Below, one piece after another: positions 6,799-29,923 of a stretch of DNA of 37,934 nt (position 1 is its first letter; each line of letters begins with the position of its first letter). The notes under the pieces were generated by a model. The model saw only the letters and a program-made list of their open reading frames with translations. It was not told the DNA's origin and searched no databases. The stretch spans positions 1-37,934 of the forward strand of contig NZ_BCRQ01000026.1 in assembly GCF_001552675.1 (NCBI RefSeq). Reading direction: 5' to 3'. This DNA is from Alicyclobacillus sendaiensis NBRC 100866 (GTDB lineage: Bacteria > Bacillota > Bacilli > Alicyclobacillales > Alicyclobacillaceae). Both the position numbers and the translations under genes were made by a program.

Positions 6799-8150
6799 TT
6801 CCCCGCGACCTCCTTCAATCCGCGTTCAACCGCGTCGCAGAGAATGGATGTCATTTCCTGAATCTCATCCACGGTGGACGCCAGCGGAGGCATAAACACA
6901 ACAACGTCTCCAAGAGGTCTCAAAAGCATTCCTAGCTCCCTAGCTTTCCAGCAGACGCGCCACCCCGCCCTTGTAGTCAACGGAAACGGACGTTTCGTCT
7001 CGCGGTCTTCCACCAGCTCAATTCCAATCATCAATCCGGCTTGCCGAATGTCACCAACGTTCGGATGATCGCGCAGCGCGTTCAAACGCATTGAGACAAT
7101 GTGGGCTACTTGCCTCACATGGTCGATCAGCCGATTTTTCTCTATCAGATCTAGGTTTGCTAGTGCACAAGCACATCCAAGTTGATTGCCGGTGTATGAA
7201 TGACCGTGATAGAGTGCCTTGAACTCCTCATACTCTCCGTAAAACGCTGCGTAAATTCGTTCTGTTGTCAGCGTTGCTGCAACTGGCAAGTACCCTCCCG
7301 TCAACCCTTTGCCAATTGTCAAGATGTCGGGCGAAACTCCATCATGTTCACAAGCCCACATGCGTCCAGTTCTTGCGAATCCTGTTGCCACCTCGTCAAC
7401 GATAAGCAAGACGTTATAGGCGTCGCAAAGTGCCCGCAGTCCCTTTAAGAAGCCCTTTGGCGCCGGAACAATTCCGCCTGCGCCCTGCACTGGTTCGACA
7501 ATGAGCGCCGCAATTTGGTCAGCTTCCCTCTGAAACAGTTCCTCGACAGCGTGAAGTGCTCCGAGAGCCGGATCAGAGCTTATGTACGGATTGCGATAGC
7601 TGTTAGGAAAAGGGATCTTATAAGTCTGAAACAAGAGCGGCGCGTAACGCGCATGAAAGATCTCAATATCCCCCACCGAGACAGCACCTATCGTGTCTCC
7701 ATGGTAGCCGTCACACATGGTTACAAATTTACTCTTTGAACACGTTCCTTTATTCTGCCAAAACTGATACGCCATCTTAAGTGCGATCTCCACAGCCTCC
7801 GCGCCGGAATCCGAGAAAAAGACTTTTGTTAAACCCGTAGGCGCAATCTTAGCGAGTCGTTCTGCGAGGAGTATGGCCGGAACATTAGCTTGGCCGAGAA
7901 GTGTTGAATGAGCGATATCCTCTAATTGTCGCCGAATAGCGTCATCTAGCTCAGGAATCCTGTGTCCGTGTACGTTAAGCCATAGAGACGAAACACCGTC
8001 CCAGTACACATTGCCATCTACGTCGATGAGTCTGCGACCCTCTCCTCGTGCGATGATGACGGGGCGGTGGTCGAAATAGTCCTTCATCTGCGTAAATGGA
8101 TTCCATAGATACTTTTTGTTTTTTTCCACCAAATCACTATACACGTGCAT
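6795..8150 (-). CDS. bioA: Adenosylmethionine-8-amino-7-oxononanoate aminotransferase
   Basis: Class III PLP aminotransferase that converts 8-amino-7-oxononanoate to 7,8-diaminopelargonate using S-adenosylmethionine or lysine as amino donor. The product is 451 residues. Marks are the N-terminal LWNPFTQMKDY typical of BioA, DSGAEAVEIALKMA, CDGYHGDTIGAVSVGD, LLIVDEVATGFARTG (PLP Asp), TIGKGLTGGYLPVAAT (Schiff-base lysine) and HGHSYTGN. The start is ATG 8150 with GAGGGTGG six bases upstream. An open frame continues to 8330, but the promoter at 8203-8231 lies inside it, so the longer start is not used. This is the first gene of the operon. GC is low (30 of 60 in 7801-7860). Confidence 0.95.
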   Translation of the reverse strand: MHVYSDLVEKNKKYLWNPFTQMKDYFDHRPVIIARGEGRRLIDVDGNVYWDGVSSLWLNVHGHRIPELDDAIRRQLEDIAHSTLLGQANVPAILLAERLAKIAPTGLTKVFFSDSGAEAVEIALKMAYQFWQNKGTCSKSKFVTMCDGYHGDTIGAVSVGDIEIFHARYAPLLFQTYKIPFPNSYRNPYISSDPALGALHAVEELFQREADQIAALIVEPVQGAGGIVPAPKGFLKGLRALCDAYNVLLIVDEVATGFARTGRMWACEHDGVSPDILTIGKGLTGGYLPVAATLTTERIYAAFYGEYEEFKALYHGHSYTGNQLGCACALANLDLIEKNRLIDHVRQVAHIVSMRLNALRDHPNVGDIRQAGLMIGIELVEDRETKRPFPLTTRAGWRVCWKARELGMLLRPLGDVVVFMPPLASTVDEIQEMTSILCDAVERGLKEVAGK

Positions 8151-8172
8151 ACGCCACCCTCTTGTCCACGAA

Positions 8173-8204
8173 TCGTCAACTCTTAAATCTTTTCCAGTTA
8201 ACAT
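8173..8204 (-). promoter_or_regulatory. Candidate BirA operator
   Basis: On the minus strand ATGTTAACT (8204-8196), a 14-bp spacer, then AGTTGACGA (8181-8173). The BirA sites known in Bacillus-type genomes are TTGTTAACC and GGTTAACAA half-sites 14-16 bp apart, so both half-sites and the spacing fit with a few mismatches. It starts inside the -10 box and covers the transcription start, the classic place for biotin-dependent repression. Confidence 0.65.
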
Positions 8205-8231
8205 ATTAGTCGAATGAGTGCTCTTTGTGAA
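8203..8231 (-). promoter_or_regulatory. bioA operon promoter
   Basis: TTCACA (8231-8226) and TAATAT (8208-8203) are separated by 17 bp on the minus strand. The start point would be about 8196, some 45 bases before the bioA ATG. It overlaps the candidate BirA operator. Confidence 0.7.
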
Positions 8232-8331
8232 GATATGAACTATGCTCCTGTGTACGAATGGATTTCCGGGCTGCTCATGCATCAATTCCGTGAATGCAAG
8301 GCATCTAGCCCCCTTAGGGTCCAACGACACC

Positions 8332-15112: not shown

Positions 15113-15202
15113 CTCCCATTCCCCCTCGCAAGGCAGCGCATGATGCCACCCTCATCTTGATGGAATCTGCCTCAGGCGTAAAGCCCGCGGCGCTCGCGTA
15201 TG

Positions 15203-15211
15203 TGATACACT
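15203..15211 (+). promoter_or_regulatory. Possible extended -10 of the asparaginase gene
   Basis: TGATACACT gives TGN plus TACACT (15206-15211), about 42 bases before the start codon. No recognisable -35 box is present, so the call is tentative. Confidence 0.3.
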
Positions 15212-15253
15212 CTTCCTGCAAAACGGTGTCCACGCGAGAAAGGAAGACCCGAC

Positions 15254-16252
15254 ATGAAGCCATTTGTCCGTGTCACCCGCGGTGCAGTTGACGAGAGCTG
15301 GCACGCAGGCGCCATCGCCGTCGCAAATCCAGAGGGCGAGATCGTCGCCTCGTATGGCGATCTCGACTTCTTCACGTTTGCCCGCAGTTCCTGCAAACCC
15401 ATTCAGGCGATCCCAGTGGTCGAGTCGGGCGCCCTCGAGGCCTTTGGACTGGACGAAAGCCACCTGGCCTTGATGTGTGCCTCCCATAGCTCGGAGCCCA
15501 TGCACGTGGAGAAGGCGAACGAGATCCTCCAAAGCATCGGGCTCGGGCCCGAGCACCTCGTCTGCGGCGTGCACGTGCCGCACAGCCGAGAAGCGTACGA
15601 AGACCTGTTGCGGCGCGGAGGAACGCTCACCGCCATTCACAACAACTGCTCTGGCAAGCACGCGGGCATGCTCGCCTACTGCAGGGCCACGGGGACCGAT
15701 CCGTCCTCGTACGCCGAGCTGGACCACCCGCTGCAACAGGCCATCCTCCGCACGCTCAGTGAACTCGCGGGCGTGCCGGTGGACGACATCCGCGTAGGGG
15801 TGGACGGGTGCGGCGTGCCCGTGCATGCGATACCGCTCAGGGCGTGGGCGCGCGCGTTTGCGTCGTTCCTCCGCCCCGGCGCCCCCCACGCGGCCGCCAT
15901 GAAGCGCATCCTGAGCGCCATGGGCCGCCATCCCGAGCTCGTGGGCGGAAGCCGGGATCGATTCGACACCGACCTCATGCGCGCGACTCAAGGCCGCATC
16001 GTGGCGAAGGGCGGCGCAGAGGGATTTTTGGCCGCGATGGACACGCGGCTTGGCCTGGCGATGGTGGTCAAGGTGCTCGACGGCAACGCGCGCGCCATTC
16101 CGCCGGTCGCGCTGAAGGTGCTGACCGATCTCGGCGCGATCTCGGCCGCGGAACGGGATTCGCTTCACGCGTACGTCGAACCGGCCGTCCTCAACACGCA
16201 GGGGCGCGAAGTTGGCCGCATCATGGCGGATTTCAGCCTCCACCGCGCTTGA
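15254..16252 (+). CDS. L-asparaginase, asparaginase II family (Pfam PF06089 type)
   Basis: A 332-residue amidohydrolase that would convert asparagine to aspartate and ammonia. It is not the classical EcAI/EcAII fold. The sequence belongs to the family first described in Rhizobium etli, marked by RSSCKPIQAIP near residue 45, MCASHSSEP, NNCSGKHAGML (the SxxK-type serine/lysine region) and GVDGCGVPVHAIPL. All are intact, so it should be active. The ATG 15254 has AAAGGAAG about eight bases upstream. It is cytoplasmic, with no signal peptide. The neighbouring GGDEF gene follows after about 70 bases in the same direction. Confidence 0.9.
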   Translation: MKPFVRVTRGAVDESWHAGAIAVANPEGEIVASYGDLDFFTFARSSCKPIQAIPVVESGALEAFGLDESHLALMCASHSSEPMHVEKANEILQSIGLGPEHLVCGVHVPHSREAYEDLLRRGGTLTAIHNNCSGKHAGMLAYCRATGTDPSSYAELDHPLQQAILRTLSELAGVPVDDIRVGVDGCGVPVHAIPLRAWARAFASFLRPGAPHAAAMKRILSAMGRHPELVGGSRDRFDTDLMRATQGRIVAKGGAEGFLAAMDTRLGLAMVVKVLDGNARAIPPVALKVLTDLGAISAAERDSLHAYVEPAVLNTQGREVGRIMADFSLHRA

Positions 16253-16324
16253 CCTGCGCAAGTTTCGCCGCGCGCGGGCGAGAAGCAGGATCTTGGAGGC
16301 GCTTGTCGAAGATGGACACTGGTG

Positions 16325-17455
16325 ATGGCCGTGGCTTTGCCAGAAGATGTCCGCGAGTTCCGCAACGGCGCGCAGCGCGCCATTCAGATTCATCGGCTGT
16401 TCCTCGCGCTCTTCCTGGCCGGGAACTTGCTCTTTGCGCCCGGTGAGTGGTGGCTGCATCGCGCCCATCTGCTCCCGTTTGCTTTGCGCGCTTGGGTGTT
16501 TGCGCCGCTCGCCATGTTCTGCATCCAGGGGATGGCGGAATGGAGCGCGCGCAAACATCCAGGCGTACGAGAAAATACCCTGATTGCGTCCGGGACGCTG
16601 CTCGCACTCGTGACCACCGCCGCGTATCCTGAGGCACAGCCCTTGCGTGCCGCGCTCCTGTTGCCCATTGTGACGTCCATTCTCCATCTTCAGGTGGAGA
16701 AGGTGTGGCTCGCGGGTACCGCGGCGTTTGCGGCAGAATTGGCGCTGACGCTGATGCCGTTGTCCAACCGCGCGAGCGCTGCAGTCATTTTTCAGTCGCT
16801 GGGGCAACTGGCGCTGTGGGGCTTGGTTCTGTTGTGGATGACGGCTGCATCTCACATTGTGTTGCGATTTGGCCTCCGAATCTGGAACGAACTGCGCGTG
16901 CAGACCCGCGCACAAACCGAACTTTGGGTTCGGCAGATTTTGTCGGAGAAAGAGGCCAAGACCGACGCGTTGACCGGCCTCTACAATCGCAAATCCTTCG
17001 ACGAATATCTCGACTTCGCGCTTCAAATCAGCGATGGCACGAATACGCCGCTGCACCTCGCCGTGATCGACATCGACAACTTCAAACAGATCAACGATCA
17101 GTTCGGACACCTGGTCGGCGACGAGATCCTTCGGCGCACGGCGCGGGCCATCCAACAGCACCTTGCGGCCGGCGACTTTCTCGCGCGGTACGGCGGTGAG
17201 GAGTTCGCCGTGATCATCCCGGAGATCAGCCACGAGCAGGCCGTCCAACATATGGAGAAGATCCGCGAGTACATCGCGAATGTTCATCACGTGGAACTCG
17301 ACGGACACCGCGCGACCGTGAGCATTGGCCTGTCCACGCATCGCCCTGGCGAAACCCGGGATGAACTCTTCGAACGAGCGGATCAGTGCCTGTACCGTGC
17401 CAAACAGACGGGCAAAAACAAGATCGTGGCCTGGGAATCGGCGATGTCGGGGTGA
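16325..17455 (+). CDS. Membrane-bound diguanylate cyclase (GGDEF)
   Basis: A 376-residue protein predicted to make cyclic di-GMP from two GTP. The first ~185 residues hold about six hydrophobic segments (for example RLFLALFLAGNLLF, RAALLLPIVTSILHL, LGQLALWGLVLLWM), probably a membrane sensor of unknown signal. A short linker helix (TRAQTELWVRQILSEKEAKT) leads to the cyclase domain. That domain starts at DALTGLYNRKSF, has DIDNFKQINDQFGHLVGDE, and the active-site GGEEF at residues 290-294. The inhibitory I-site RxxD is AAGD at 281-284, so its arginine is missing. The start ATG 16325 has only a weak ribosome site. No EAL partner is in the window. Confidence 0.9.
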   Translation: MAVALPEDVREFRNGAQRAIQIHRLFLALFLAGNLLFAPGEWWLHRAHLLPFALRAWVFAPLAMFCIQGMAEWSARKHPGVRENTLIASGTLLALVTTAAYPEAQPLRAALLLPIVTSILHLQVEKVWLAGTAAFAAELALTLMPLSNRASAAVIFQSLGQLALWGLVLLWMTAASHIVLRFGLRIWNELRVQTRAQTELWVRQILSEKEAKTDALTGLYNRKSFDEYLDFALQISDGTNTPLHLAVIDIDNFKQINDQFGHLVGDEILRRTARAIQQHLAAGDFLARYGGEEFAVIIPEISHEQAVQHMEKIREYIANVHHVELDGHRATVSIGLSTHRPGETRDELFERADQCLYRAKQTGKNKIVAWESAMSG

Positions 17456-17469
17456 ATGTGTGAAGAGCA

Positions 17470-17501
17470 GAGGGCCGGAAGGATGGACAAATCCAGCCCT
17501 C
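17470..17501. terminator. Weak hairpin between GGDEF gene and glcA
   Basis: GAGGGC (17470-17475) and GCCCTC (17496-17501) form a six-pair stem with a 20-base loop between convergent stops. No T-run follows; low confidence. Confidence 0.25.
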
Positions 17502-17508
17502 AAGTTCC

Positions 17509-19848
17509 TCACAGACGGATGGAGAACGATATGCCTTCTACGCGAGCCTCCCGTATCTCATGGGACGTAAACAAGCGAACCACACTTTCCTGACTTCCAC
17601 CCTCCCCTGATCCTTCGACAAGGTGGCATTCAATCTGTGTTCCGTCCGCTGTGGCGAGGACCTGCAGCACGCGGTCACAGTAGGCGCCGTCCTCATAGTT
17701 GAACGTCTCGCCGTCGTCCTCGTAGCATCGCCCCGAAGCGTGACCGTTGGCGTCCATAAAGATCTCCCATCCGAGTTGCGTCTGTCTCGGATTTTCCATG
17801 AGATTCACGGGAATCACGCTACCTGCCCGGATGTAAAGCGGGATGCGGTCGAGAGACGCGTGCGTCAAGATGTACTGGCGCCCTTGGTATCGCTCGCGTG
17901 TTTCGTAATCGATCCATTCCCCTTCCGGCAAGTACACCATTCTACGGGTCATACCCGGCTTGAGGATAGGAGCCACGAGCAGGTCCGAACCCACGAGGAA
18001 CTGATCATCGATGTGATGCGTGTTGGGATCGTCAGGGTACTCCAAGACTAACGGCCGCATCATGGGCAAGCCGGTCTCGTGGGCTTCCCGCACGAGCGTG
18101 TACAGATAGGGCAGGAACCGATAACGAAGGTGTATCGCACGTCGGATGGCGGCCTCGAACTTGGGGCCGAATGACCAAGGTTCTTGTCGGTGCGTTCCCA
18201 TAGCACTGTGATTTCGAAAGAACGGGAAGAACGCGCCCATTTGTGTCCAACGCGCGAGCAGCTCACCGGAAGCATGATGGGCAAAACCACCCACATCTGG
18301 GCCGCTTAACGGAACACCGGACATCCCCATGTTGAGCACCATCGGTATGGCCATCGCCATATGCTCCCAAAAACTCCGATTGTCGCCTGTCCATACCGCG
18401 GCGTATCGTTGAATGCCGCTGTAGCCAGCGCGCGTGAGCACAAACGGTCGCTTGCCATCCAACTGCGCCTTCAGTCCTTGATAGGTGGCCTCAGCCATCC
18501 AGAAACCATACAGATTGTGAACCTCGCCGTGCGTGTGCAGTCGCCCGTCTCCCCGGTGGACCACGTTCACGTCCATGGTCTTTGTCTCATTGAACACGGC
18601 CGGCTCGTTCATGTCGTTCCATATGCCTTCTATGCCCATCTGGGTATACGTTCGGTGCCAACGACCCCACCACGCCCTCACGTCCCCTGACGCGAAGTCG
18701 GGAAAGGCACTCAATCCGGGCCACACCTCGCCAAGATAGACCTGACCCTCAGCGGTTTGGCAGAAGTGGTTGTGAGCAAGTCCATCCATGTAGACCGGAT
18801 ATTCCGGGTCCTGTTTCACCCCCGGATCCACGATGGGGACCACGCGCACCCCAAGCTTCTTCAGCTCGTGACACATCCGCGCCGGATCAGGGAATCGCCG
18901 TTCATCAAAGGTGAACACCCGATAGCCGTCCATATAGTGGATGTCCAGGTAAATAGCATCCAAAGGAATGTCTCTGGCTACAAACGTTTGCGCAACAGAG
19001 AGTACCTCGCTCTGGGTCTCGTATGAGTAGCGAGACTGATGATAGCCGAGCGCCCATTTAGGTGGCATAGGCATACGCCCCGTGAGCTTCGTGTAACGCC
19101 GAATGACATCCTTTAAGGACGACCCAAAAATGAAATAGACGTCTAACCCTCCTCGATCTGTCGAGATTTCGACGTCAGGATACCTGCTTCGGAAGTCAAA
19201 GCGAGATAGTCCTGGATGATCGACAAAGACGCCAACGGCGGTTCCTCCTTGCATCCGCAAGAAGAACGGGATCGACAGATAGAGGGCCTCCATCTCGGGC
19301 ACGTGCGGCGCGTAGACGTCGGAGTTCCACATGGTATACGCCTCATGCCGTTTGTCAAGAGGACCAGGTTTTTCGCCAAGGCCGTAGAACCGAGCGTCTT
19401 CGAGCGAAGCGAATGCCAATGCGCCACCTTTTTTACGCTTGTACCACGTGATGCCCTCGACGGCCGTTTCGAAGCCGGTATGGCGAATACGCCATGTTCC
19501 ATCATCTTGGTCGATTTGAATTCGCCACCCAGCATCACATTCGAGCAGCACGTGCGTTTCCGCTTGAGTCATTCTCCAGGGATACCGCTGGGTGATTTCC
19601 TCTACAACGGCGGGGCTCGTCGTCGGCCACTCCCCAACGGTCTTGCAATACGCGACGCGCAAAACACTATCGTCGACTGCGGCCACACCCACAGCTACTC
19701 CGGCGTCATACACAATCGCCGCCCCGCCGTCGCGGTCCACGTCAAAACGGCGAGGTCGCCCGAGATAAACCCAGTCATCCGGCGTCGATGTCTGCGCATC
19801 CGGGCGGATCGCTTCACTGGTCGTGAGATCCGTCTGTTCGTGAATCAT
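17509..19848 (-). CDS. glcA: Alpha-glucosidase, GH31
   Basis: A 779-residue cytoplasmic glycoside hydrolase of family 31 that releases glucose from maltose and maltodextrins. The catalytic nucleophile lies in GIWNDMNEPAVF (Asp412) and the acid/base in WTGDNRSFWEH (Asp489). FYGLGEKPGPLDKR and YLDIHYMDGYRVFTFD are further family motifs. No signal peptide is present, so it works on imported sugar. The start is ATG 19848, with GAGGGG seven bases upstream; two earlier starts (19872, 19863) lack such a site. Its start lies 35 bases inside the end of cdaA, and it closes the maltodextrin cluster. A CAAACGTTTG palindrome at 18981-18990 is within the coding frame. Confidence 0.95.
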   Translation of the reverse strand: MIHEQTDLTTSEAIRPDAQTSTPDDWVYLGRPRRFDVDRDGGAAIVYDAGVAVGVAAVDDSVLRVAYCKTVGEWPTTSPAVVEEITQRYPWRMTQAETHVLLECDAGWRIQIDQDDGTWRIRHTGFETAVEGITWYKRKKGGALAFASLEDARFYGLGEKPGPLDKRHEAYTMWNSDVYAPHVPEMEALYLSIPFFLRMQGGTAVGVFVDHPGLSRFDFRSRYPDVEISTDRGGLDVYFIFGSSLKDVIRRYTKLTGRMPMPPKWALGYHQSRYSYETQSEVLSVAQTFVARDIPLDAIYLDIHYMDGYRVFTFDERRFPDPARMCHELKKLGVRVVPIVDPGVKQDPEYPVYMDGLAHNHFCQTAEGQVYLGEVWPGLSAFPDFASGDVRAWWGRWHRTYTQMGIEGIWNDMNEPAVFNETKTMDVNVVHRGDGRLHTHGEVHNLYGFWMAEATYQGLKAQLDGKRPFVLTRAGYSGIQRYAAVWTGDNRSFWEHMAMAIPMVLNMGMSGVPLSGPDVGGFAHHASGELLARWTQMGAFFPFFRNHSAMGTHRQEPWSFGPKFEAAIRRAIHLRYRFLPYLYTLVREAHETGLPMMRPLVLEYPDDPNTHHIDDQFLVGSDLLVAPILKPGMTRRMVYLPEGEWIDYETRERYQGRQYILTHASLDRIPLYIRAGSVIPVNLMENPRQTQLGWEIFMDANGHASGRCYEDDGETFNYEDGAYCDRVLQVLATADGTQIECHLVEGSGEGGSQESVVRLFTSHEIREARVEGISFSIRL

Positions 19849-21547
19849 ATCTACACCCCTCATGTGAATCACATTCCCATATCAGGACCGTCCGGTCCTC
19901 GCCGGTTCGTGACGGAACATCCCAAGCGAAGAGTGGAGAGTCCTTCCCGATACCTAAGGCGCGACGTTTGCCAAGCGCAACATGAAGATGCGAGCCGGTG
20001 CCACCGTGGCGCACATAGTGCAGCACACCAGGCTTCACATCGAGAATCTCCATCCTATCTCCTGCGAGCGCAGGATGCGTTCGCTTGAGCCATGCGAGTT
20101 GCCGGATGGCTTCGCGTAGGTGGCGCTTCCATAGGTTCGCGTCCCACGGCATACCCCTTCGGCAATCTGGATCGGCGCCACCTTCCATGCCAATTTCGTC
20201 CCCGTAGTAGACCATGGGAATACCAGGCAGCGTGAACAGCATGGCAAAGGCCAGTACGACCGAGGGGACATGGCCGCGGGCTCGCGTGAGAACGCGTTCA
20301 GTATCATGGCTGCCCAACAGATTCCACATTGCCCGCCATGCCGCACGTGGATATTGGAGGTATAGCCGTACCCAGCCTTCTGCGAAAGCGAGCTCATCCA
20401 TAGACTCGTCGACCGCATATCGCAGGACAAGCTCTCGAAGCGGATAATTCATGACGCCGTCAAATGCGTTGCCCGTCAGCCAGGGAAGACTGTCATGCCA
20501 TATTTCGCCTATCAGCAAGATGTCCTGCTTCAAAGCACGTAGTTCGGAACGCAACCGCGGCCAGAACTGGGGATCGATTTCATTGGCGACGTCAAAACGC
20601 CATCCGTCGATATCGCACTCGAGAACATAATGTTTGGCCACGTTCAGAAAGTACGCCTGAGCAGAAGGCTCGGCCAAATTCAGTTTGGGCATATCTCGGA
20701 GGCCCGACGCAAAGGTCTCGTAATTGACGGATTCCACATCGACGTGGTCTCCGTGCACGAAGAACCAGGACCAATAGGGAGACGCCTTGCCGCGAGCCCT
20801 CACGTCTCGAAACGGCGCGAAGAGGAACCCTGAATGATTGAACACTGCGTCGAGCACCACGTGAATCCCAAGGCGATGAGCCTCTTTGACGAGCAGCTTC
20901 AGATCGTCGAGCGTGCCAAAGGCGGGATCCACAGAAAAATAGTCCTGCGTATCGTATTTGTGGTTGGAAGGAGCTTGAAAGATGGGCGTGAGATATACGA
21001 GATTGACGCCGAGATCGCTCAGATAAGCAAGTTTCTCAACAATGCCTCGCAGGTTCCCGCCAAATACGCTCTTTGGAGCCGGGCGCGCGTCCCAAGGATC
21101 CGTCGGACGAACCAGCAGGGGTTCACCCATGGCAAACCGGTCAGGGAATATTTGATAGGCCACTGCATGCCCCACCCAATCCGGGACGGTGAGAACCTGG
21201 GACGGGTGAATATAAGGATAGTGAAATGGCTGAACCGCATCCAAAGCATGAGCGAGCCCACCCTCACCTAGGTACACGACGCAACCGCTGGGGGACAACA
21301 CTTCAAACGCGTATTTCAGCCTGCGTGTTGGAACGGCCACTTCACAGGTGAACCAGTCAAACGCCCCGTCCGATCCGTACCGGCAAGCTTCGCATGAGTC
21401 CTGAAAGTGAGGTTCATACCGATCTCCAAAGTGCACGCGCACCCTCAACACCGGCGTGCATCGCGCCACACGCAAGGCAAGCACGATGGTGGAGGAATTG
21501 AGCGGGTACGCGTCCACCGCCCAACGATGTTGCCACACGAGTTCCAT
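19814..21547 (-). CDS. cdaA: Cyclomaltodextrinase / neopullulanase, GH13
   Basis: A 577-residue cytoplasmic enzyme that hydrolyses cyclodextrins, maltodextrins and possibly pullulan. The N-terminal ~120 residues form the extra beta domain of this subfamily. Then come VAYQIFPDRFAMG, region I DAVFNHSG (His238), MPKLNLAEP (the neopullulanase-specific fifth region), region II DGWRFDVANE (nucleophile Asp319), region III LIGEIWHD (Glu348), and region IV GSHDTER (His414, Asp415). All canonical residues are kept. The ATG 21547 has GGGAGGG about eight bases upstream. It sits between malR and glcA. The lack of a signal peptide fits intracellular use of imported dextrins. Confidence 0.95.
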   Translation of the reverse strand: MELVWQHRWAVDAYPLNSSTIVLALRVARCTPVLRVRVHFGDRYEPHFQDSCEACRYGSDGAFDWFTCEVAVPTRRLKYAFEVLSPSGCVVYLGEGGLAHALDAVQPFHYPYIHPSQVLTVPDWVGHAVAYQIFPDRFAMGEPLLVRPTDPWDARPAPKSVFGGNLRGIVEKLAYLSDLGVNLVYLTPIFQAPSNHKYDTQDYFSVDPAFGTLDDLKLLVKEAHRLGIHVVLDAVFNHSGFLFAPFRDVRARGKASPYWSWFFVHGDHVDVESVNYETFASGLRDMPKLNLAEPSAQAYFLNVAKHYVLECDIDGWRFDVANEIDPQFWPRLRSELRALKQDILLIGEIWHDSLPWLTGNAFDGVMNYPLRELVLRYAVDESMDELAFAEGWVRLYLQYPRAAWRAMWNLLGSHDTERVLTRARGHVPSVVLAFAMLFTLPGIPMVYYGDEIGMEGGADPDCRRGMPWDANLWKRHLREAIRQLAWLKRTHPALAGDRMEILDVKPGVLHYVRHGGTGSHLHVALGKRRALGIGKDSPLFAWDVPSRTGEDRTVLIWECDSHEGCRYDSRTDGSHDQ

Positions 21548-21571
21548 GGGGACCCTCCCGGGACGACGGTT

Positions 21572-22600
21572 CTAGGTCGTCATGGTGCCAATTGGCTTTG
21601 CGCCGCAGGAATACCGAATGACCAGTTCATGATGGACGGTGACATGCCGTTGTAGAGGTTTGCCTTGTGCAATCTCCTCCAGCAAAAGTTCGGCCGACCG
21701 CACACCCAACTCATGCATGTGAACCCGGACACTGGTCAGTGCGGGATGGGCGAGCTCCGCCAATCGAATGTCGTTAAATCCGACAATGGCGAGATCGCCG
21801 GGTACCTCGAAACCCAGTTCATGAGCTGCACGCATGCCACCGAATGCCAACACGTCGTCTGCACAGAGAACCGCGCTCGGGCGGTCTGGGATGGCGAGCA
21901 AGCGCATCATGCCGAGGTAACCGCCTTGCTCGAGAAAAAAGCTGGAGACCTCAAGCCGCGGATCAGGTTCCACCCCGTGGTCCAACAAGGCCTGCCGGTA
22001 GCCCGCGACGCGATCGATGGTCACGACCAAGTCGGAAGCGCCACCCAAAAACCCAATTCGGCGATGCCCCAGATTCAGCAAGTGGACTGTCGCATCATAA
22101 GCAGCTCGCCGGTTGTCATTATTCACCCAACTGATAGGCGACGGGTCCGCAGGGCGACCGAGAAGGACAGCGGGACAGCGCAACTTCGCGACCTCGTGCA
22201 GGACGGGATCGCTCTTCCGCGTGCCTATCAGAAGAACACCGTCCACACGCCTACCCCGTATCATGTGATCCAAGGTTTCGATCTCGCCCCGCGAAGAGGT
22301 GGAGAGAACCGTGTCCACGCCACGTTGCCGGGCCACCTCTGCCACACCCGCCATCCATTCCGAGAAGAAGGGGTTCACGAAAAACTCTTGTGCTGAGGGC
22401 GGAATGAGAATGCCAATGGCCCCCGTAGAGTTCGTCACCAGACCGCGTGCAAACGCGTTTGGATGGTAATTCAGTTGTTCAAGAGCAGCTCGAACCCTTC
22501 GCTTGGTCTCCTCAGAGATGCGAGGCGAGTTAGCAAGCACGCGAGACACCGTGGACGGCGACACGTTTGCAAGGCGTGCGACGTCTTTGATCGTGGCCAC
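21572..22600 (-). CDS. malR: LacI-family regulator of the maltodextrin cluster
   Basis: A 342-residue repressor. The N-terminal helix-turn-helix is ATIKDVARLANVSPSTVSRV, followed by the hinge NYHPNAFARGL. The remainder is the periplasmic-binding-like sensor domain (GILIPPSAQEFFVNPFF, GVLLIGTRKSD, PSAVLCADDVLAFGGMRAA, VGFNDIRLAELAHPALTSV), presumably binding maltose or a maltodextrin. The likely targets are the 16-bp palindromes with a CAAACGTTTG core at malE and amyA, since LacI-family proteins bind such sites. GTG 22600 has GGAGG eight bases upstream. It is co-transcribed with malEFG, so it is probably autoregulated through the malE promoter. A global CcpA is a less likely identity because of the cluster context. 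Confidence 0.92.
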   Translation of the reverse strand: MATIKDVARLANVSPSTVSRVLANSPRISEETKRRVRAALEQLNYHPNAFARGLVTNSTGAIGILIPPSAQEFFVNPFFSEWMAGVAEVARQRGVDTVLSTSSRGEIETLDHMIRGRRVDGVLLIGTRKSDPVLHEVAKLRCPAVLLGRPADPSPISWVNNDNRRAAYDATVHLLNLGHRRIGFLGGASDLVVTIDRVAGYRQALLDHGVEPDPRLEVSSFFLEQGGYLGMMRLLAIPDRPSAVLCADDVLAFGGMRAAHELGFEVPGDLAIVGFNDIRLAELAHPALTSVRVHMHELGVRSAELLLEEIAQGKPLQRHVTVHHELVIRYSCGAKPIGTMTT

Positions 22601-22625
22601 GGCGAACGCCTCCTTCCAGCAAACA

Positions 22626-23531
22626 TCAACCTTTTACCGATCCCGCCACCAGCCCTTTCGTCAGATATCGCTGTGCGATGGCAAACACGATGGCAAGAGG
22701 CACAGCCGACAACAGCGCAGCGGCAGCAAACTCTCCCCAGTTTTTCGCGAACTGCCCGCTGATCAAATTGTACATGCCCACACCCAGCGTGTAATTCCAA
22801 GGTGACTGGAGAATGGTACCCGCGAACATGTACTCGCTGAAGATGCCGACCAGTGTCAGAAAGAAAATCACGACCATCATCGGAGTGGACAACGGCAATG
22901 TCACGTGGATGAATCTCTTCCAGGTGGTCGCGCCATCAATGACGGCCGCCTCGTCCAACTCCCTCGGCACAGAATCCATGTACCCTTTCAAGAGCCAGAT
23001 GTTAAATGCACTCGTTCCGAGCATCACGAGGATGTACGAACCCAACATGTCGATCATGTTCAACTTCGCGAGCGCCGTATAGAAGGCCGCGATCGCCAAG
23101 ATATTGGGAAACATCTGGAGGAGGAGCAAGGTCATGAGACCGTATTTCCTCCCGTAGAATCTGAGCTTGGAAAACGCAAAAGCGGACATCGCCGTGATGA
23201 ACGATTGTGCTACTGCGACCACCACGCCGACCAGCAAACTGTTGCGAACCCATGCCCAGAATTGCCCGCCTTGAAACAGAGTTTTGTAGTTCACAAGGGA
23301 AGCATTCGCAGGGAACAACGAAAACGAAATGTATGAATTTGAAGGGTTAAACGACGCGATCACGACAAACCACATCGGGAGCAAAACCATGACGATGATG
23401 CACCAAATGACGACGCGGGACGCCCAGAGAACGACTCGCTCTCCCGGTTGCATCGAGCGCCGGCGGCGTGTGCGAGATGCAGGAAGACGTTCGGATGTCA
23501 GTGATGAGATACGGTCCGTCGACGTCGCCAT
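22626..23531 (-). CDS. malG: Maltodextrin ABC transporter permease
   Basis: A 301-residue inner-membrane permease with six hydrophobic segments, the first at about residues 33-60. The EAA loop that docks the ATPase is ELDEAAVIDGATTWKRFIHV, and the tail ends KGLVAGSVKG as in MalG proteins. It pairs with MalF to form the channel fed by MalE. The ATG 23531 overlaps the malF stop (TGATG), with AAGGAGGT nine bases before it; a GTG three bases earlier is equally placed. The N-terminal ~30 residues are basic and Arg-rich (RTRRRRS), an inside anchor. No ATPase gene accompanies it in this window. Confidence 0.94.
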   Translation of the reverse strand: MATSTDRISSLTSERLPASRTRRRRSMQPGERVVLWASRVVIWCIIVMVLLPMWFVVIASFNPSNSYISFSLFPANASLVNYKTLFQGGQFWAWVRNSLLVGVVVAVAQSFITAMSAFAFSKLRFYGRKYGLMTLLLLQMFPNILAIAAFYTALAKLNMIDMLGSYILVMLGTSAFNIWLLKGYMDSVPRELDEAAVIDGATTWKRFIHVTLPLSTPMMVVIFFLTLVGIFSEYMFAGTILQSPWNYTLGVGMYNLISGQFAKNWGEFAAAALLSAVPLAIVFAIAQRYLTKGLVAGSVKG

Positions 23532-24496
23532 CACGCATCGACCTCCTTAAACGCTCCGGTGTATCGCATCTGTACCCAGCTGATGAGAGCTACGAGAATG
23601 AAGAGCAGGACCGAGATCGTCGCGCCTAAATCATAGCGATTGAAGGTCAGCGTCATCTTGTAGGCAGCAGTTGCCAAAATATCCGTCTCACCTAGGAACG
23701 GATTGTTCGAATTGGGCGGCCCTCCGCCGGTCAAGAGATACGATGCGTTAAAGTTATTAAAGTTGAACGAAAAAGAAGGTATTAAGAGCGGCAGTGAGAT
23801 GCGCCAAACCGAGGGCATGGTCACGTACCGGAACACTTGCCACCAGTTGGCTCCGTCAATTTCCGCGGCCTCATATTGGTCCGTCGGGATCGATTGCAGA
23901 GCACCTAAACACACGATCATCATGTAAGGGAAACCGGCCCAGACGTTGACCATGATCACCGCAACCCTTGCCCACAACGCACTCGTGAGCCAGGGAATGG
24001 GCGGTAGGCCGAAGACGCCGTGCAGAAGTGCATTGATTTGACCGTACTGATCATTTAACAGACCTTGCCATGCGAGCATGGAAATCAGGTTCGGAACCGC
24101 CCACGGCACGATGAGCAGGGTGCGATAGAGTGTGCGCTCCTTCATGTGCTTGTTGTTGAGAAGGACGGCCAAGAACAGTCCGACAAGGTACGCGAGCACC
24201 GTCGTGCAGAGTGCATATACCAAGGTCCAAATGAACGTCGGCAAGAACAGATTCGACAATGGATCGTGCGGATTTAAGAGTTCCTCATAATTCTTCAGAC
24301 CGATAAACTGATACGACAGAAAGTGCATTTGATTGAAATTCGTAAAGGAGATGTAGATAGTATAGAAAATCGGAAGAATGCTCAACACGCAGATGGTGAC
24401 GAGCGCGGGAGACAAATATCCATAAGCTATCCAATCCACGCGCCGCTTCGCGCGCTGCCGGCTATGAGACCTTCTGATCTCCATGACGGTGGCCAT
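23531..24496 (-). CDS. malF: Maltodextrin ABC transporter permease
   Basis: A 321-residue inner-membrane permease with six to seven hydrophobic segments (first at ALVTICVLSILPIFYTIYIS). The EAA motif is YEAAEIDGANWWQVFRYVTMP, and the preceding QSIPTDQ is typical of the family. It lacks the long periplasmic P2 loop of enteric MalF, as usual in Gram-positive forms. The start ATG 24496 has GGGGGG about eight bases upstream; the earlier in-frame start at 24532 falls in the hairpin between malE and malF. It overlaps malG by one base. Confidence 0.94.
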   Translation of the reverse strand: MATVMEIRRSHSRQRAKRRVDWIAYGYLSPALVTICVLSILPIFYTIYISFTNFNQMHFLSYQFIGLKNYEELLNPHDPLSNLFLPTFIWTLVYALCTTVLAYLVGLFLAVLLNNKHMKERTLYRTLLIVPWAVPNLISMLAWQGLLNDQYGQINALLHGVFGLPPIPWLTSALWARVAVIMVNVWAGFPYMMIVCLGALQSIPTDQYEAAEIDGANWWQVFRYVTMPSVWRISLPLLIPSFSFNFNNFNASYLLTGGGPPNSNNPFLGETDILATAAYKMTLTFNRYDLGATISVLLFILVALISWVQMRYTGAFKEVDA

Positions 24497-24520
24497 AGGC
24501 TTACCCCCCTCGTAAGGAAA

Positions 24521-24543
24521 GGAGCCAGCCACAGGCCGGCTCC
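24521..24543 (-). promoter_or_regulatory. Intercistronic hairpin between malE and malF
   Basis: GGAGCC-A-GCC (24521-24530), loop ACA and GGC-C-GGCTCC (24534-24543) form a ten-base stem with one mismatch. On the minus strand it is followed by TTTCCTTACG. Such stems after binding-protein genes commonly protect the upstream message or thin out downstream transcription, so that MalE is made in excess of the permeases. The role here is inferred. Confidence 0.65.
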
Positions 24544-24562
24544 CACCTGCGCACCGATGATA

Positions 24563-25840
24563 TCAGGACCCTTGCGCCATGATGCCCTTTTGAATATTTT
24601 TCACAAAATCCTTTCCACCCTGCTCGGGCGACACCTTTCCTGCAATGATGTTCTGCAGGATGCTCATCGCTTGCCACACGGCCTGCATCTGCGGAATGTT
24701 GGGCATCGGCACCGCGTAGCGCAGCTGTTCGACAAACGCTTTAAAGATTGGACTCGACTGAACCGAGCTCGACCTTTGCACTGACAAAAGTGCAGGAATC
24801 TGTTGAGAATCTTTGAAGTACATTTGCTGTGCCTGCGCACTGGTCAATGCTTGCACAAGGCTCCAGTCGGCGGCCTGTGTTTTGGACTCCTTGTTCACAA
24901 ATGCCGTGATGACCCCCAGGAACGGCGTGGCGTGTTTACCGTTTGGCAAGGTGGGCCAAGGCGTAACGCCAAAGTCAATTTTAGCCTTTTCAATATCCGC
25001 CGTGTCCCACGGCCCACTCACATACATGCCAATTTTCCCAGCGACAAACTCAGCCTTTGCAATCGAGCCATTCGTGCTTGGTGTCATCCAGTGGTACTTG
25101 GAAACCATGTCGCGCATGAGCGTATAGGCCTGAACCGCGCCCGGCGTGTCAAGCCCTATGTTGTTCGGATCAAGCGTGCCGTTTTTGTCCTTGAACACGT
25201 ACCCGCCATAACCACCGATGATGGCGTAATCAAAGTAAAGGTTCGCCTGGTCGTACATGAAGCCATGTGCATTCGCGTCTTTCACGAATTCCGACCATGT
25301 CTGCGGTGGCTGCGGCACAAGCTTCTTGTTGTAATACATCGCCGCGACCTGAACGGACACCGGCACCGAATACATCGTGCCATTCACCTTGATTGCGTCA
25401 ATGGTGTTTGGCGCGTAGAGGCTCGTGTTGATCACGCCAGGCGGCACCGGCGCCATGAGTCCTTCTTCCGCAAAGACGCCGTTGTTGTCGTGCGGCATTC
25501 CAAATACCACGTCAGGCCCCTTGCCCGTCCGCGCCGCGGTAGCATAAAACTGGAATCCCTTCGGGTTGGAACTTTGGTCGACGACGACGACCTTGTCTCC
25601 ATGCGCCTTGGCCCATTGCGCGGCGATTTTCTTCACGTCTTGCAACTCGGGCCCGGTCTGCCACGACCAAACGGTAATGGTCTGCCCTTTCGGCAGCGTG
25701 CTGGGCTCTCCGCTGGCCGTCGAAGAGCTCGCCGGAGGAGACGCGTTCTGCCCGCCACTCGACGCTCCGCAGCCAACGATGGTTCCGCCGGCCAACACCA
25801 GTGTGGCCACACTTGTCGATACGATTCCCCATCGCCTCAC
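24563..25840 (-). CDS. malE: Maltose/maltodextrin-binding lipoprotein
   Basis: A 425-residue extracellular solute-binding protein tethered to the membrane. The N-terminus is a lipoprotein signal with lipobox IVGC (modified Cys24), then a Ser/Ala/Pro/Gly-rich linker. The mature part begins GQTITVWSWQTGPELQDVKK, as in family 1 sugar-binding proteins. GKIGMYVSGPWD and GVITAFVNKESK are further family marks. It captures maltodextrins outside the cell at acid pH and passes them to MalF/MalG. GTG 25840 has GAGGGGG about eight bases upstream. It is the first gene of the malEFGR-cdaA-glcA run, behind a promoter covered by a MalR-type operator. Confidence 0.95.
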   Translation of the reverse strand: MRRWGIVSTSVATLVLAGGTIVGCGASSGGQNASPPASSSTASGEPSTLPKGQTITVWSWQTGPELQDVKKIAAQWAKAHGDKVVVVDQSSNPKGFQFYATAARTGKGPDVVFGMPHDNNGVFAEEGLMAPVPPGVINTSLYAPNTIDAIKVNGTMYSVPVSVQVAAMYYNKKLVPQPPQTWSEFVKDANAHGFMYDQANLYFDYAIIGGYGGYVFKDKNGTLDPNNIGLDTPGAVQAYTLMRDMVSKYHWMTPSTNGSIAKAEFVAGKIGMYVSGPWDTADIEKAKIDFGVTPWPTLPNGKHATPFLGVITAFVNKESKTQAADWSLVQALTSAQAQQMYFKDSQQIPALLSVQRSSSVQSSPIFKAFVEQLRYAVPMPNIPQMQAVWQAMSILQNIIAGKVSPEQGGKDFVKNIQKGIMAQGS

Positions 25841-25985: not shown

Positions 25986-28900
25986 TTAACGCGACAACGT
26001 CAGCGGGTTCGACACAGCTTGCCCATCGTCATTTTGCGCAGCGACTCGGTAGGTGACTGACGAGAGGCCGGCCGGAACTCGAAGGGAAACCGTCATGACT
26101 CCTCTCCCCAGCATGTTTGAGTCCTCATCCGCACCGTTCCCTGGGCTTTTCACCTCCTGGTACGCCGATACTCTATTGACTACCATATACGCCCCGTCCA
26201 ACTGTTTCTCGTAGATGATATATTGTGTTGCACCCGACACAGGTGTGATGGAAAGGATGGCTCTCCCCGCTTCGATCCGGCCACGAATCTCCGGCTGATT
26301 CAGGCGCACGGCGGGTACATCTACTGGAAGAGACAGATGGCCTTCATTCGGACTCGTCTCCCGACCAGGCGTTCCAAGGATGGCTTCAACAGCAAACGTT
26401 TGCGCCGTCGCGCCGCGGCTTACCGTAAAACTCAAGTCTTCCGCAGAAAGCACGGGCCCAGCGGGCAGCCAGTGTCCGTCCGCATTCTTCTTCCAAACGC
26501 GATAACCCAAGGCACCTTGAACAGGTGTCCAAGCAATCTCGTCCTGAGAATGTTCCTCCTGCAAATAGGCCACCGGCGTGTCGCTTGGCGTCACGAATAT
26601 CGCGCCTTGGTAGGGCTGCAAAGTGAGCGTGATATGACCGTTCTGCACCTCGTGCCATTGGTTGGTCAGCTCATCAAGCATCATGGTGCCGTCCGCAACG
26701 GTCCCGCGCGTCGGAATGGTCACCGTGGTCGTTTGGTTCTGATTGTTGATGGCCACGATGGCCGTGGCGTTCCGCGCTGGGTCGCCGAAGACATCATGCC
26801 CATCTTGGATGGTTCTCGCAAATGCGTACACCATCCCTTCTGCATACAAAGGTGTGAAACCTCCGGTCTGTAGAACAGAATTGGCAGTCCGAATGGCGCC
26901 AAGCTTGCGATAGTGGTTCAAGAGCGCAAGGTTCTGATGATCCCACGGATAGGTCCTACGATTGAGCGGATCAGAATAGCCGCCTAACCCCGCTTCGTCT
27001 CCGTAAAAAATCGTCGGATCACCAGGAAAGCTGAATTGGAAGTCGGAAACAAGTTTCAGCCTCTCAATGCCGAGCTCATCATCTGCCGCGGACGGCTCGT
27101 ACTCGTCCTGCTCAAGCGCAGACATATCGCCCGGTTGTGGCGCGTTCTCCAGGATGGTCAAGATCCTCATGGTGTCCTGTGAATCGACAAGGTTCATCAT
27201 CGAATCAAACGACTGCAGCGGATACTCGCTGTAGAGCCGCATCAGTTCTTGGTTGAATCCTGGGGCGTCGACGGCGTGATGTTGCACATTGCCGTCATTG
27301 TATGTCCCACGGAAGAAGTCGATGACCGCATTCCGAAACTGGTAATTCATCACACTATCAAACGTCGAACCCGTCAGCCAATCCGTTCCGTTGTCATTTG
27401 TGGCGTTTCCCCAGACCTCTCCTACAATCGCCGCATTTGGGTCGATGGACTTCACCGCTTTGCGGAAGCCACTCCACCAGGAAGTATTGAAGTTGCTGTT
27501 GTCTGCCGAGTCCAAACGCCACCCGTCCGCTCCTTCGCCTATCCAATAACGCGCCACAGAGTGGCTGCCCCCGTAAACAAATCGCTGATAGGCAGGGTCC
27601 GACGTATTCGTCAAGGGCAGGGTGTCAATCTGGAACCACGAATTATAAGGGTTCGAGGCATTGCCTGTCCATGAATACCAGGAATAGTAAGGCGATAGGG
27701 ATGGCTGGTTCTTCAGGTATGCCTGCCATGCCCCCTCTGAGCGGAAATTCCCGAACTTATTAAAATATACACTGTCACTTCCGGTGTCCTCGAACACCCC
27801 GTCCAGGATGATGTGGAACCCCTTTGCGTGCGCGGCCCGCACCAGGTTCAACCAATCCTGCTGCGTGCCAAATCCGGGGTCGATCTTGAAGTAGTCAGCT
27901 GTATCGTACTTGTGATTGGACTCCGCTTCAAACACAGGCATGAGATAAAGCGTATTGACCCCTAAGCTCTTCAGGTAATCCAGCTTGTCCTCAATGCCCC
28001 GCAGATCGCCCCCAAAAAAGTCGATGTTCCATTGTCCATTCCCTCGGAGCGCAGCAATGCTCGGGTCGGACGAGGGAGGGATGTTAGGGTCGTAAGGCGG
28101 CGAGTCCCAGTTCCCGTGGAACTCAATGGGACCCAACGACTCCGCGCCGTTTTCGTTTACATAGATCCCCTTTTGAGTCTTTGGGTTCTCTTCCGTCGCG
28201 ATGTCTCCGTTATAGAACCGATCCGGCATGATTTCATAGATCACCGCGTGTTTCAACCAATCGGGGGTTTGAAATCCCCGTTCGTACACGGTGATCTGAT
28301 AGCTTGGTCCGTCAGAAGACAACCCAACCTGGCCAAGACCTTCGAGTTGGGCCCCGTTATCATCGTAATAAATGACCTGACCGGTTTCCGTCTCTGTCTT
28401 AAACTGATACCACATGGTACCGGGTGTTTTTACATAAGAAGGAGGGATCGTCACTGTCCACCATGTGTAGTTGCTCGCATCCTCCACGCCCGCTTGTTGA
28501 GCCAATTCGTCCGCAGACATTTGCAGCTTTTGCATGGGTAGGTCCACCTCGCCCGCCCGACCGTCGGCTCCCCACAGTCGAAGCGTCGCGCGCTCGACGC
28601 TGAGAGGCGCACGCAGACGAAGTGTGATGGGTGTTCCTGTCGGCACCGCTCCGAATGGCGAACGATAAAACGCCCGAAACGAATCGTGTTCATACGCTTC
28701 CATCCACGCAGGCAGCGGACCAATCACAAGTTCCGCACTTCTATCGAACTCGACGTTCACCACCCCATCCGCGTCCTTCGCGACTGTGACGATTTCGACG
28801 CGGTACAGACCATTCGGGAGGCTCGCGGGAACCGTGAATTGAACGCTGTTCCAGGTCGCATTTGCCCCACGAGCCGTGGCAACCGTATCGCCCGATGAGT

Positions 28901-29870
28901 TGACGAACCGCACCCATGTCTCGTTGGGCTGGTCCTGACTTCCCGCGAAGTCCCCCACAGGATCGGAAGCCGTGATTGTATCACCAGGATTGGCTTGTAG
29001 GGACGAGAGCGTCAGCGTGCCCACAGGCAGCGGAAAGTTGTTGTTTGTGTCGTCGGACGTGTGCAGGCCGTCACCGGAGAGACATGCAAAACTGGTGCCG
29101 TCGTAGATGTCGAAACGGTAGTAAACGGTTCCTCCATCTGAGGCCGGGATTTGGGCGGACCAGAGTTGATAGGGTCCAAATGTTCTGCCTGGGGACATTG
29201 CCACCTGAAAGCCTTTGTTCTGTGCGGTGTCCCAGCAGTTCAATACCACCTTCGTCAGATTTCCGCTGTACGCACGAAGACGGATGGTCACCGCTTCTCC
29301 CGGCGAAGGATTGGGATCAGATACGTACATCGAACTATCCGACGTGTAAATCCCGTCCCATTGAATCGTGCTGGCGGTTGTATAGGGCATCACCTCAAGC
29401 CCTTGTCCTGGAGGTGTCGAGACGGAAAGTGTCCCACTTTCGACGGTCACCGTGTACGTGCCCGCCCCCAGCCCATCCTCACCCCCGGGAAGCCGCAGCG
29501 TGACAGAATTGGGCCCCGTCAGCGCGGCGTAGTCGGTTACGTCGATCACGCCGTTGTTCGAATTCGATACCTCTACCTTCAAATTTGTGGCATCCAGGTT
29601 CAGGCCGGTCACGGTGAGGACCACCGTGGCTGCGTCTCCCGCCCGAAAACCGTTGCCGCTGACAATCTGAACGGAACCGGAATCGGTTGGTTCAGTTGCG
29701 TTGCCAGGCGAAGCCGCGCCGGTCGAGGATGGCGCATCGGGACTGACTACCGTGTTCGCCGCGAGAACGCGGGCCTTGCTCACGACACGTGGGTTGCCAA
29801 ACACCGCCACCGGGAGCGTCGCCGACATGACGATGGACGTCGCGAGTCCCGCAGCACCTTTCCAATTCAA
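25986..29870 (-). CDS. amyA: Secreted alpha-amylase/amylopullulanase, GH13, multidomain
   Basis: A 1294-residue exported starch-degrading enzyme. A signal peptide covers about residues 1-25 (LNWKGAAGLATSIVMSAT, then AVFG). About 500 residues of beta-sandwich modules follow. The catalytic barrel begins at HAVIYEIMPDRFYNGD (~540), and two fibronectin-III-like repeats end the protein. Region II EGADGWRLDSADN (nucleophile Asp787), region III VGEVWGN (Glu818) and the region IV Asp899 are present. However, region I reads DGVFEDTG instead of DxxxNH, and region IV SQD instead of SHD, so both conserved histidines are replaced. The start TTG 29870 has AAGGAGG eight bases upstream; the frame upstream runs through the operator. 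A GCAAACGTTTGC palindrome lies inside the 3' coding part. Confidence 0.93.
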   Translation of the reverse strand: MNWKGAAGLATSIVMSATLPVAVFGNPRVVSKARVLAANTVVSPDAPSSTGAASPGNATEPTDSGSVQIVSGNGFRAGDAATVVLTVTGLNLDATNLKVEVSNSNNGVIDVTDYAALTGPNSVTLRLPGGEDGLGAGTYTVTVESGTLSVSTPPGQGLEVMPYTTASTIQWDGIYTSDSSMYVSDPNPSPGEAVTIRLRAYSGNLTKVVLNCWDTAQNKGFQVAMSPGRTFGPYQLWSAQIPASDGGTVYYRFDIYDGTSFACLSGDGLHTSDDTNNNFPLPVGTLTLSSLQANPGDTITASDPVGDFAGSQDQPNETWVRFVNSSGDTVATARGANATWNSVQFTVPASLPNGLYRVEIVTVAKDADGVVNVEFDRSAELVIGPLPAWMEAYEHDSFRAFYRSPFGAVPTGTPITLRLRAPLSVERATLRLWGADGRAGEVDLPMQKLQMSADELAQQAGVEDASNYTWWTVTIPPSYVKTPGTMWYQFKTETETGQVIYYDDNGAQLEGLGQVGLSSDGPSYQITVYERGFQTPDWLKHAVIYEIMPDRFYNGDIATEENPKTQKGIYVNENGAESLGPIEFHGNWDSPPYDPNIPPSSDPSIAALRGNGQWNIDFFGGDLRGIEDKLDYLKSLGVNTLYLMPVFEAESNHKYDTADYFKIDPGFGTQQDWLNLVRAAHAKGFHIILDGVFEDTGSDSVYFNKFGNFRSEGAWQAYLKNQPSLSPYYSWYSWTGNASNPYNSWFQIDTLPLTNTSDPAYQRFVYGGSHSVARYWIGEGADGWRLDSADNSNFNTSWWSGFRKAVKSIDPNAAIVGEVWGNATNDNGTDWLTGSTFDSVMNYQFRNAVIDFFRGTYNDGNVQHHAVDAPGFNQELMRLYSEYPLQSFDSMMNLVDSQDTMRILTILENAPQPGDMSALEQDEYEPSAADDELGIERLKLVSDFQFSFPGDPTIFYGDEAGLGGYSDPLNRRTYPWDHQNLALLNHYRKLGAIRTANSVLQTGGFTPLYAEGMVYAFARTIQDGHDVFGDPARNATAIVAINNQNQTTTVTIPTRGTVADGTMMLDELTNQWHEVQNGHITLTLQPYQGAIFVTPSDTPVAYLQEEHSQDEIAWTPVQGALGYRVWKKNADGHWLPAGPVLSAEDLSFTVSRGATAQTFAVEAILGTPGRETSPNEGHLSLPVDVPAVRLNQPEIRGRIEAGRAILSITPVSGATQYIIYEKQLDGAYMVVNRVSAYQEVKSPGNGADEDSNMLGRGVMTVSLRVPAGLSSVTYRVAAQNDDGQAVSNPLTLSR

Positions 29871-29890
29871 GCTTATCAACCTCCTTGTAC

Positions 29891-29906
29891 GTGCAAACGT
29901 TTGCAC
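29891..29906 (-). promoter_or_regulatory. MalR/cre-type operator in the amyA leader
   Basis: GTGCAAACGTTTGCAC is a perfect 16-bp palindrome about 14-29 bases downstream of the predicted amyA transcription start and just before the ribosome site. It shares the CAAACGTTTG core with the malE operator. It also fits the loose catabolite-responsive pattern TGNAANCGNWNNCW, which the malE copy does not. Confidence 0.88.
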
Positions 29907-29923
29907 CAAACTTATCGTCCTGG

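Follow-up and report, generated by a model that had tools for sequence, protein, structure and literature searches.

The AmyA locus and its neighbours

The window, by which we mean the whole stretch of 37,934 nucleotides that was analysed, carries on its minus strand the genes of two GH13 proteins, the exported amylopullulanase AmyA and the GH13_20-like CdaA. The features on which the analysis draws are as follows.

25986-29909, minus strand: open frame of AmyA, 1307 residues when read from the TTG at 29909
29793-29870, minus strand: signal-peptide-like stretch at the AmyA N-terminus (LNWKGAAGLATSIVMSATLPVAVFGN), placed by eye with approximate limits
26865-28301, minus strand: catalytic stretch of AmyA used as query, A and B domains, residues 537-1015
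27912-27914, minus strand: H666 of SNHKYD, the third conserved histidine, kept
27780-27803, minus strand: region I, DGVFEDTG, residues 703-710 (codons GAC GGG GTG TTC GAG GAC ACC GGA)
27789-27791 and 27786-27788, minus strand: E707 in place of N or S, and D708 in place of His
27504-27524, minus strand: region II, GWRLDSA, residues 796-802, with R798 and the nucleophile D800 kept and S801 where relatives have an invariant Val
27492-27503, minus strand: DNSN, residues 803-806, after region II, with a two-residue insertion and N806 for Glu
27411-27422, minus strand: region III, GEVW, residues 830-833, with the acid/base E831 kept
27171-27182, minus strand: region IV, SQDT, residues 910-913 (TCA CAG GAC ACC), with Q911 for His and D912 kept
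19814-21547, minus strand: CdaA, with no signal-like N-terminus and with the histidines of both NH and HD kept

Residue numbers follow the longest open reading frame (TTG 29909); those of a preliminary description of this locus, counted from TTG 29870, are 13 lower. The latter codon, nine bases past AAGGAGG, is the more likely start, and gives a protein of 1294 residues.

AmyA is adjoined by a maltodextrin cluster (17509-25840, minus strand), in which CdaA is surrounded by a GH31 alpha-glucosidase, a LacI-type regulator, two ABC permeases and a solute-binding protein. A frame of 786 residues (15152-17512, minus strand), which overlaps the GH31 gene by four bases, is probably not a gene: it has no Pfam or NCBIfam match, is rich in His and Arg, and lies opposite plus-strand frames. 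BioF- and BioA-like genes of biotin synthesis are found at 5581-8330 (minus strand). Throughout the genome (2.79 Mb, 153 contigs) there are two PF00128 matches at E ≤ 0.001, namely, AmyA and CdaA.

AmyA is a GH13 enzyme without the histidines of regions I and IV

The histidines of regions I and IV of GH13 enzymes touch the sugar in subsite −1 and aid transition-state binding. They are listed among the seven best conserved residues of the family, and termed 'almost completely conserved', in the available part of the source (PMC6274110). The preliminary description had claimed that AmyA lacks both, within a span (26892-27810) that includes the two sites, themselves of 8 and 4 codons. This was confirmed by the codons and by alignment, since phmmer sets ED opposite NH and SQD opposite SHD of TVAII (Thermoactinomyces vulgaris alpha-amylase II). 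In the same alignment the nucleophile, the acid/base and the third Asp are in register, family alignments agree, and the triad previously given as Asp787, Glu818 and Asp899 is indeed kept as D800, E831 and D912.

Residues 560-978 match PF00128 with 180.1 bits (cut-off 22, Pfam scan), and this domain, the catalytic triad and the region II Arg, all present, place AmyA in GH13. The two histidines expected of the family, which are not absolute in their source (PMC6274110), are replaced by D708 and Q911, and this marks AmyA as a GH13 variant without thereby excluding membership. The loss of active-site histidines is not total, as H666 is conserved in 27 of 27 AmyA-type genes and in 91 of 91 relatives.

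It had also been proposed that the replacements are not a loss of function, and the following evidence sustains this. First, a purified Alicyclobacillus AmyA homologue, MMBJNONL_14124, acts on pullulan at pH 4.5 and 60 °C with triose as the main product, and in the same set the closest counterparts of AmyA and CdaA were about 80% identical to them (available parts of PMC12510369); and an optimum of pH 3.0 and 75 °C is given for AmyA in the available part of PMC6172347, citing Matzke 1997. Second, the catalytic stretch has a dN/dS of 0.038 with L004 and of 0.031 with L005, at dS of 1.5 and 2.1, near saturation, and the ratio is not computable for three of the five pairs (L007, L008, L010), where dS is saturated; we read this as strong purifying selection. 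Third, an AlphaFold2 model of the catalytic stretch has a mean pLDDT of 94.9 and a pTM of 0.94, its closest solved folds being entries of T. vulgaris alpha-amylase I (TVAI). Because of the low dN/dS, the confident fold model and the active homologue, AmyA looks like a working enzyme with a rebuilt active site, not a decayed gene.

Distribution of the replacements

When 59 Alicyclobacillales genomes were searched with the catalytic stretch as query, 24 of them had matches at E ≤ 1e-80. There are 29 such matches, of which 27 are full length and two are partial, without region I (L027, L038). Region I reads E-D in all 27 full-length genes, with differing synonymous codons, which discards a sequencing or frame error. 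Region IV of the same genes has Gln in 17 and His in 10, and both partial genes have SQD. The group was first sorted by the ED residues themselves; independent of that sorting are the presence of ED in every full-length match and the single clade that these genes form on the tree. A short AmyA paralogue with ED (frames of 714-862 residues; L019-L024, L034-L037) occurs in the order's second family, and long and short forms occur together in several genomes (G037, G044, G048, G049).

ED and SQD are found together in all eight AmyA genes read from Alicyclobacillus, the genus of the window. The gene of Ferroacidibacillus organovorans (L039) has ED in region I and keeps His in region IV. This organism is 'extremely acidophilic' according to a title cited in PMC11123200, in whose available part most Alicyclobacillaceae, except Tumebacillus, are said to be acidophiles.

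Relatives outside the order were drawn from the best 80 of 585 in a scan of named genomes (76 others, plus four that repeat genes of the order), from 15 loci of a class search and from two loci of another search; after dropping two repeats, 91 rows remained. Both region I and region IV have His in 91/91 of these, and ED in none. They include Thermoanaerobacterium saccharolyticum (L043), Sporomusa, Anoxybacillus flavithermus, Neobacillus kokaensis and Clostridium manihotivorum. A phylum search added 29 loci, read among 72 match rows besides that of the window itself, all of them His/His, some of which may repeat the first set. Thus, relatives with ED and SQD, which would have spoken against the acid reading of the preliminary description, were sought and not encountered (0/91 outside the order and 0/29 further loci), among relatives from hosts of mostly unspecified growth pH. 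The canonical NH assumed for region I needs qualifying: its His is invariant in the 91 relatives and the residue before it is variable (60 S, 29 N and 2 A).

One change in region I, several in region IV

A tree of the 27 genes and 12 outside rows, from which the trait columns were removed, joins the ED genes in one clade with a support of 100/100, so that one change in region I suffices. Region IV requires on the same tree at least four switches between His and Gln. This is a parsimony count whose direction is not fixed, on a tree that was rooted by choice on the outside rows, with five inner branches open and long joining branches. The two residues are one base apart (CAC/CAT and CAG/CAA), and all four codons are seen among the genes. 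In sequence terms, the pattern suggests that region I was altered first, and region IV afterwards, repeatedly or with reversals. The two replacements had been presented as one package, and this did not hold: ED is a single inherited event, and Gln is missing from 10 of the 27 ED genes. Since ED arose once and was passed on by descent, its link with acid depends on one change and is statistically uninformative on pH.

The ED clade differs also around the nucleophile. Four differences are absolute between 31/31 ED rows and 93/93 others (counts that include four and two repeated genes, respectively), namely, H708D, V801S, a residue inserted at 804, and E806N, and all four lie within or adjoining conserved regions. 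Together they could alter substrate choice, and this may have fixed ED; the occurrence of the region II changes in the same clade makes a change of specificity, which may have driven region I, a serious rival to any explanation by acid.

Other GH13 proteins of the genome and of the order

PF00128 matches were found in 45 of the 59 genomes, four weak ones (L176, L177, L178, L180), unaligned by the profile, being left out of the counts. Among the GH13 proteins without an export signal that were read, the histidines are kept in both types. First, CdaA of the window, as had been pointed out, has both (DAVFNHSG, GSHDTER; L001), and NH and HD are present in 8/8 CdaA-type genes read (L001, L028, L031, L032, L160-L163), with no export signal visible in the four N-termini inspected. 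Second, frames of the oligo-1,6-glucosidase type have NH in 28/28 and NHD in 27/28, the remaining one being a fragment of 243 residues. NH and SHD are also present in L175, an exported protein that resembles a CGTase.

A second exported type, of 712-919 residues with an N-terminal export signal or anchor, has TVAI as its closest sequence in the PDB. All 11 genes of this type in the order (L164-L174) were taken, and all have NH in region I. In region IV, eight have Gln (STQD) and three have His (DHD; L168, L169, L170). TVAI itself keeps NH and NHD, and relatives of this type outside the order have His in 6/6 (L186, L187, L217, L218 and the plasmid loci L219 and L220), a count from which two further Vibrio matches were left out. 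At least two changes in region IV are needed on the tree of this type, which has long outside branches and from which L220 was left out.

Both residues can be found within one genome. In G031 and G061, an AmyA with ED and SQD stands beside a TVAI-like gene of the His type (L009 with L169, and L033 with L170), and G016 has one TVAI-like gene with Gln and one with His (L167, L168). These mixed genomes indicate that external acidity does not impose Gln on all exported GH13 enzymes. In the TVAI-like genes with His, this residue is preceded by an acidic or glycine pair (DDHD, GDHD), where the Gln types have STQD; to judge by these motifs, the pair in L168, L169 and L170 is a possible compensation.

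Acid adaptation and its alternatives

The preliminary description read the replacements as a possible adaptation to acid. One part of this gained support, as the change from His to Gln recurs in a second exported lineage (8/11 genes); the part that joined ED and Gln did not.

With a pKa near 6-7, His is charged at pH 3-4.5, where carboxylic acids are largely or partly protonated and Gln is neutral. As His would thus be a cation and Asp, Glu and Gln would be neutral, a swap for neutral partners is the simplest form of the acid reading. The putative course of events has two steps. In the first, taken once in the ancestor of the Alicyclobacillales AmyA-type genes, N/S-H would have become E-D, together with V801S, the gain of two residues and E806N; in the second, repeated and reversible, the His of region IV would have given way to Gln. 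If the enzyme works at about pH 3-4.5, a His would be a cation beside a cationic, oxocarbenium-like transition state, whereas Asp and Glu, largely protonated, and Gln could hydrogen-bond to O6 and O2/O3 of the −1 glucose without carrying a charge. Binding would then survive without a pH-dependent charge, if the contacts are those of the family.

The recurrence of Gln in the second exported lineage strengthens this reading. The low share of charged residues in the ED clade and the kept histidines of the GH13 proteins without an export signal also speak for it. It is weakened by the His keepers, one of them in an extreme acidophile, which imply that Gln is not required: the region IV His is kept in 10/27 ED genes and in 3/11 TVAI-like genes. 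Against it is also that N to E and H to D add acidic residues despite the loss of charge in the clade, that inside the clade the genes with His have a smaller share of charged residues than those with Gln, and that two TVAI-like proteins outside the order (L186, L187) are equally low in charge. On the sequence comparisons, adaptation to acid seems to us the best single explanation of the replacements, one whose chances of being right and wrong we judge about equal, and an effect on the pH profile is predicted. We hold more tentatively, as possible yet doubtful, the fuller proposal that selection by acid repeatedly strips −1 subsite histidines from exported GH13 enzymes, in at least two lineages of one order, with protonated Glu/Asp and Gln standing in for them as neutral partners of the transition state at pH 3, and that a one-time change in region I and a reversible one in region IV have thereby given an active centre without either canonical His.

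The strongest alternative, serious though in our estimate somewhat unlikely, is a remodelling of specificity, in which selection acted jointly on ED and on the changes of region II, for linkage or chain preference or for transglycosylation, acid being a minor factor for region I and Gln a tolerated variant. The mainly triose product obtained from pullulan with the AmyA homologue is in its favour (available parts of PMC12510369). So is the place of the four absolute differences, in or near conserved regions. The residue after the nucleophile steers the preference between alpha-1,4 and alpha-1,6 bonds in GH13 alpha-glucosidases, which adds to its side. However, the relative of the Thermoanaerobacterium type (L043), presumably an amylopullulanase, has NH, SHD and the usual region II, so that alpha-1,6 cleavage needs no such change, and a remodelled specificity leaves the change from His to Gln in the TVAI-like type unexplained.

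A second alternative is drift: exported proteins of the order would shed ionisable residues, and the two histidines would have been swept along without benefit to the active site. K, R, D and E make up 16.6% of the ED clade (13.6-20.7% in single genes) and 26.1% of its relatives, with 22.8-30.4% in 13 large relatives of the GH13_39 kind, and S, T, N and Q make up 27.3% against 17.2%, N and Q being roughly doubled; the switches of region IV run in both directions, as drift would have it. Yet total His barely differs (1.8% in the clade, 2.2% in relatives, 2.1% in AmyA), H666 is kept in all 27 genes, and ED adds acids; moreover, both histidine positions are invariant in the 91 relatives, and are thus not free there. 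We therefore regard drift as improbable.

Two simpler ideas on composition were discarded. First, Gln does not follow the degree of charge depletion, since the trend inside the ED clade is the opposite (charged residues are 15.3% in His keepers and 17.4% in Gln carriers). Second, the kept H666 and the little altered His content dispose of a general loss of histidines in acid. Two TVAI-like proteins from outside the order are also poor in charge (L186, 15.2%; L187, 14.6%).

Finally, that AmyA has lost all or nearly all catalysis and now binds starch or acts as a scaffold is barely credible: two of the seven best conserved residues of the family are gone (PMC6274110, available part), but the triad is intact, purifying selection acts, the homologue is active, as is AmyA at pH 3.0 and 75 °C (PMC6172347, available part), and the idea falls altogether if MMBJNONL_14124 has ED and SQD, as do the eight AmyA genes of the window's genus.

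Meaning and comparison with known systems

The alpha-amylase family is taught as binding sugar, almost without exception, through the histidines of regions I and IV. Nature provides intermediates, in which ED is combined with either His or Gln, or, in the TVAI-like type, NH with Gln. These let the roles of the two histidines in binding, in the transition state and in the response to pH be tested in enzymes that evolution has already compensated. The clade also points to a concrete way of obtaining starch enzymes that are active in acid, and it cautions that searches with a region I motif miss the ED enzymes.

The closest named relatives outside the order, among the best 80 of 585, are Thermoanaerobacterium saccharolyticum L043 and Thermoanaerobacter L044, with 43% and 41% identity over the best segment. 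Both, which we take to belong to GH13_39, are of exported size and have the same regions, but region I reads NH or SH, region IV SHD and region II VENE or VANE. As for the tentative placement of AmyA in GH13_39, its nearest outside relatives by sequence include these two genera, and the tree is rooted by choice and has long branches. dbCAN assigns AmyA to GH13_39 with CBM34 (PMC12510369, available parts); the Pfam scan found no CBM34 in AmyA.

The closest counterparts known are A. acidocaldarius AmyA (UniProt Q06307) and MMBJNONL_14124, which share the layout of the AmyA/CdaA cluster and an exported GH13 of about 1300 residues, and are both described as GH13_39 with CBM34, converting pullulan into maltotriose at acid pH (PMC12510369, available parts). 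The AmyA of the window and Q06307 very probably belong to the same gene family. In the passages available from PMC12510369, three of the four conserved regions are found in the AmyA homologues (four in the discussion) and the two histidines are not discussed. Our literature search found no description of their loss in AmyA, an earlier mention in the AmyA papers of the 1990s (Matzke, Schwermann) being possible. The variant active site, in a known family, is real and conserved, and within the literature searched it is apparently undescribed.

Two further enzymes help to situate AmyA. TVAI (PDB: 1ji1, 5z0u), which has the nearest fold to AmyA and the nearest sequence to the second exported type, keeps NH and NHD. 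BmaN1 of Bacillus megaterium, of GH13_45, is a precedent for an active GH13 clade with odd residues in its conserved regions that is defined by descent (PMC5347038, available part); in BmaN1, however, members of the triad itself are replaced, whereas in AmyA the triad is intact and it is the flanking histidines that are replaced.
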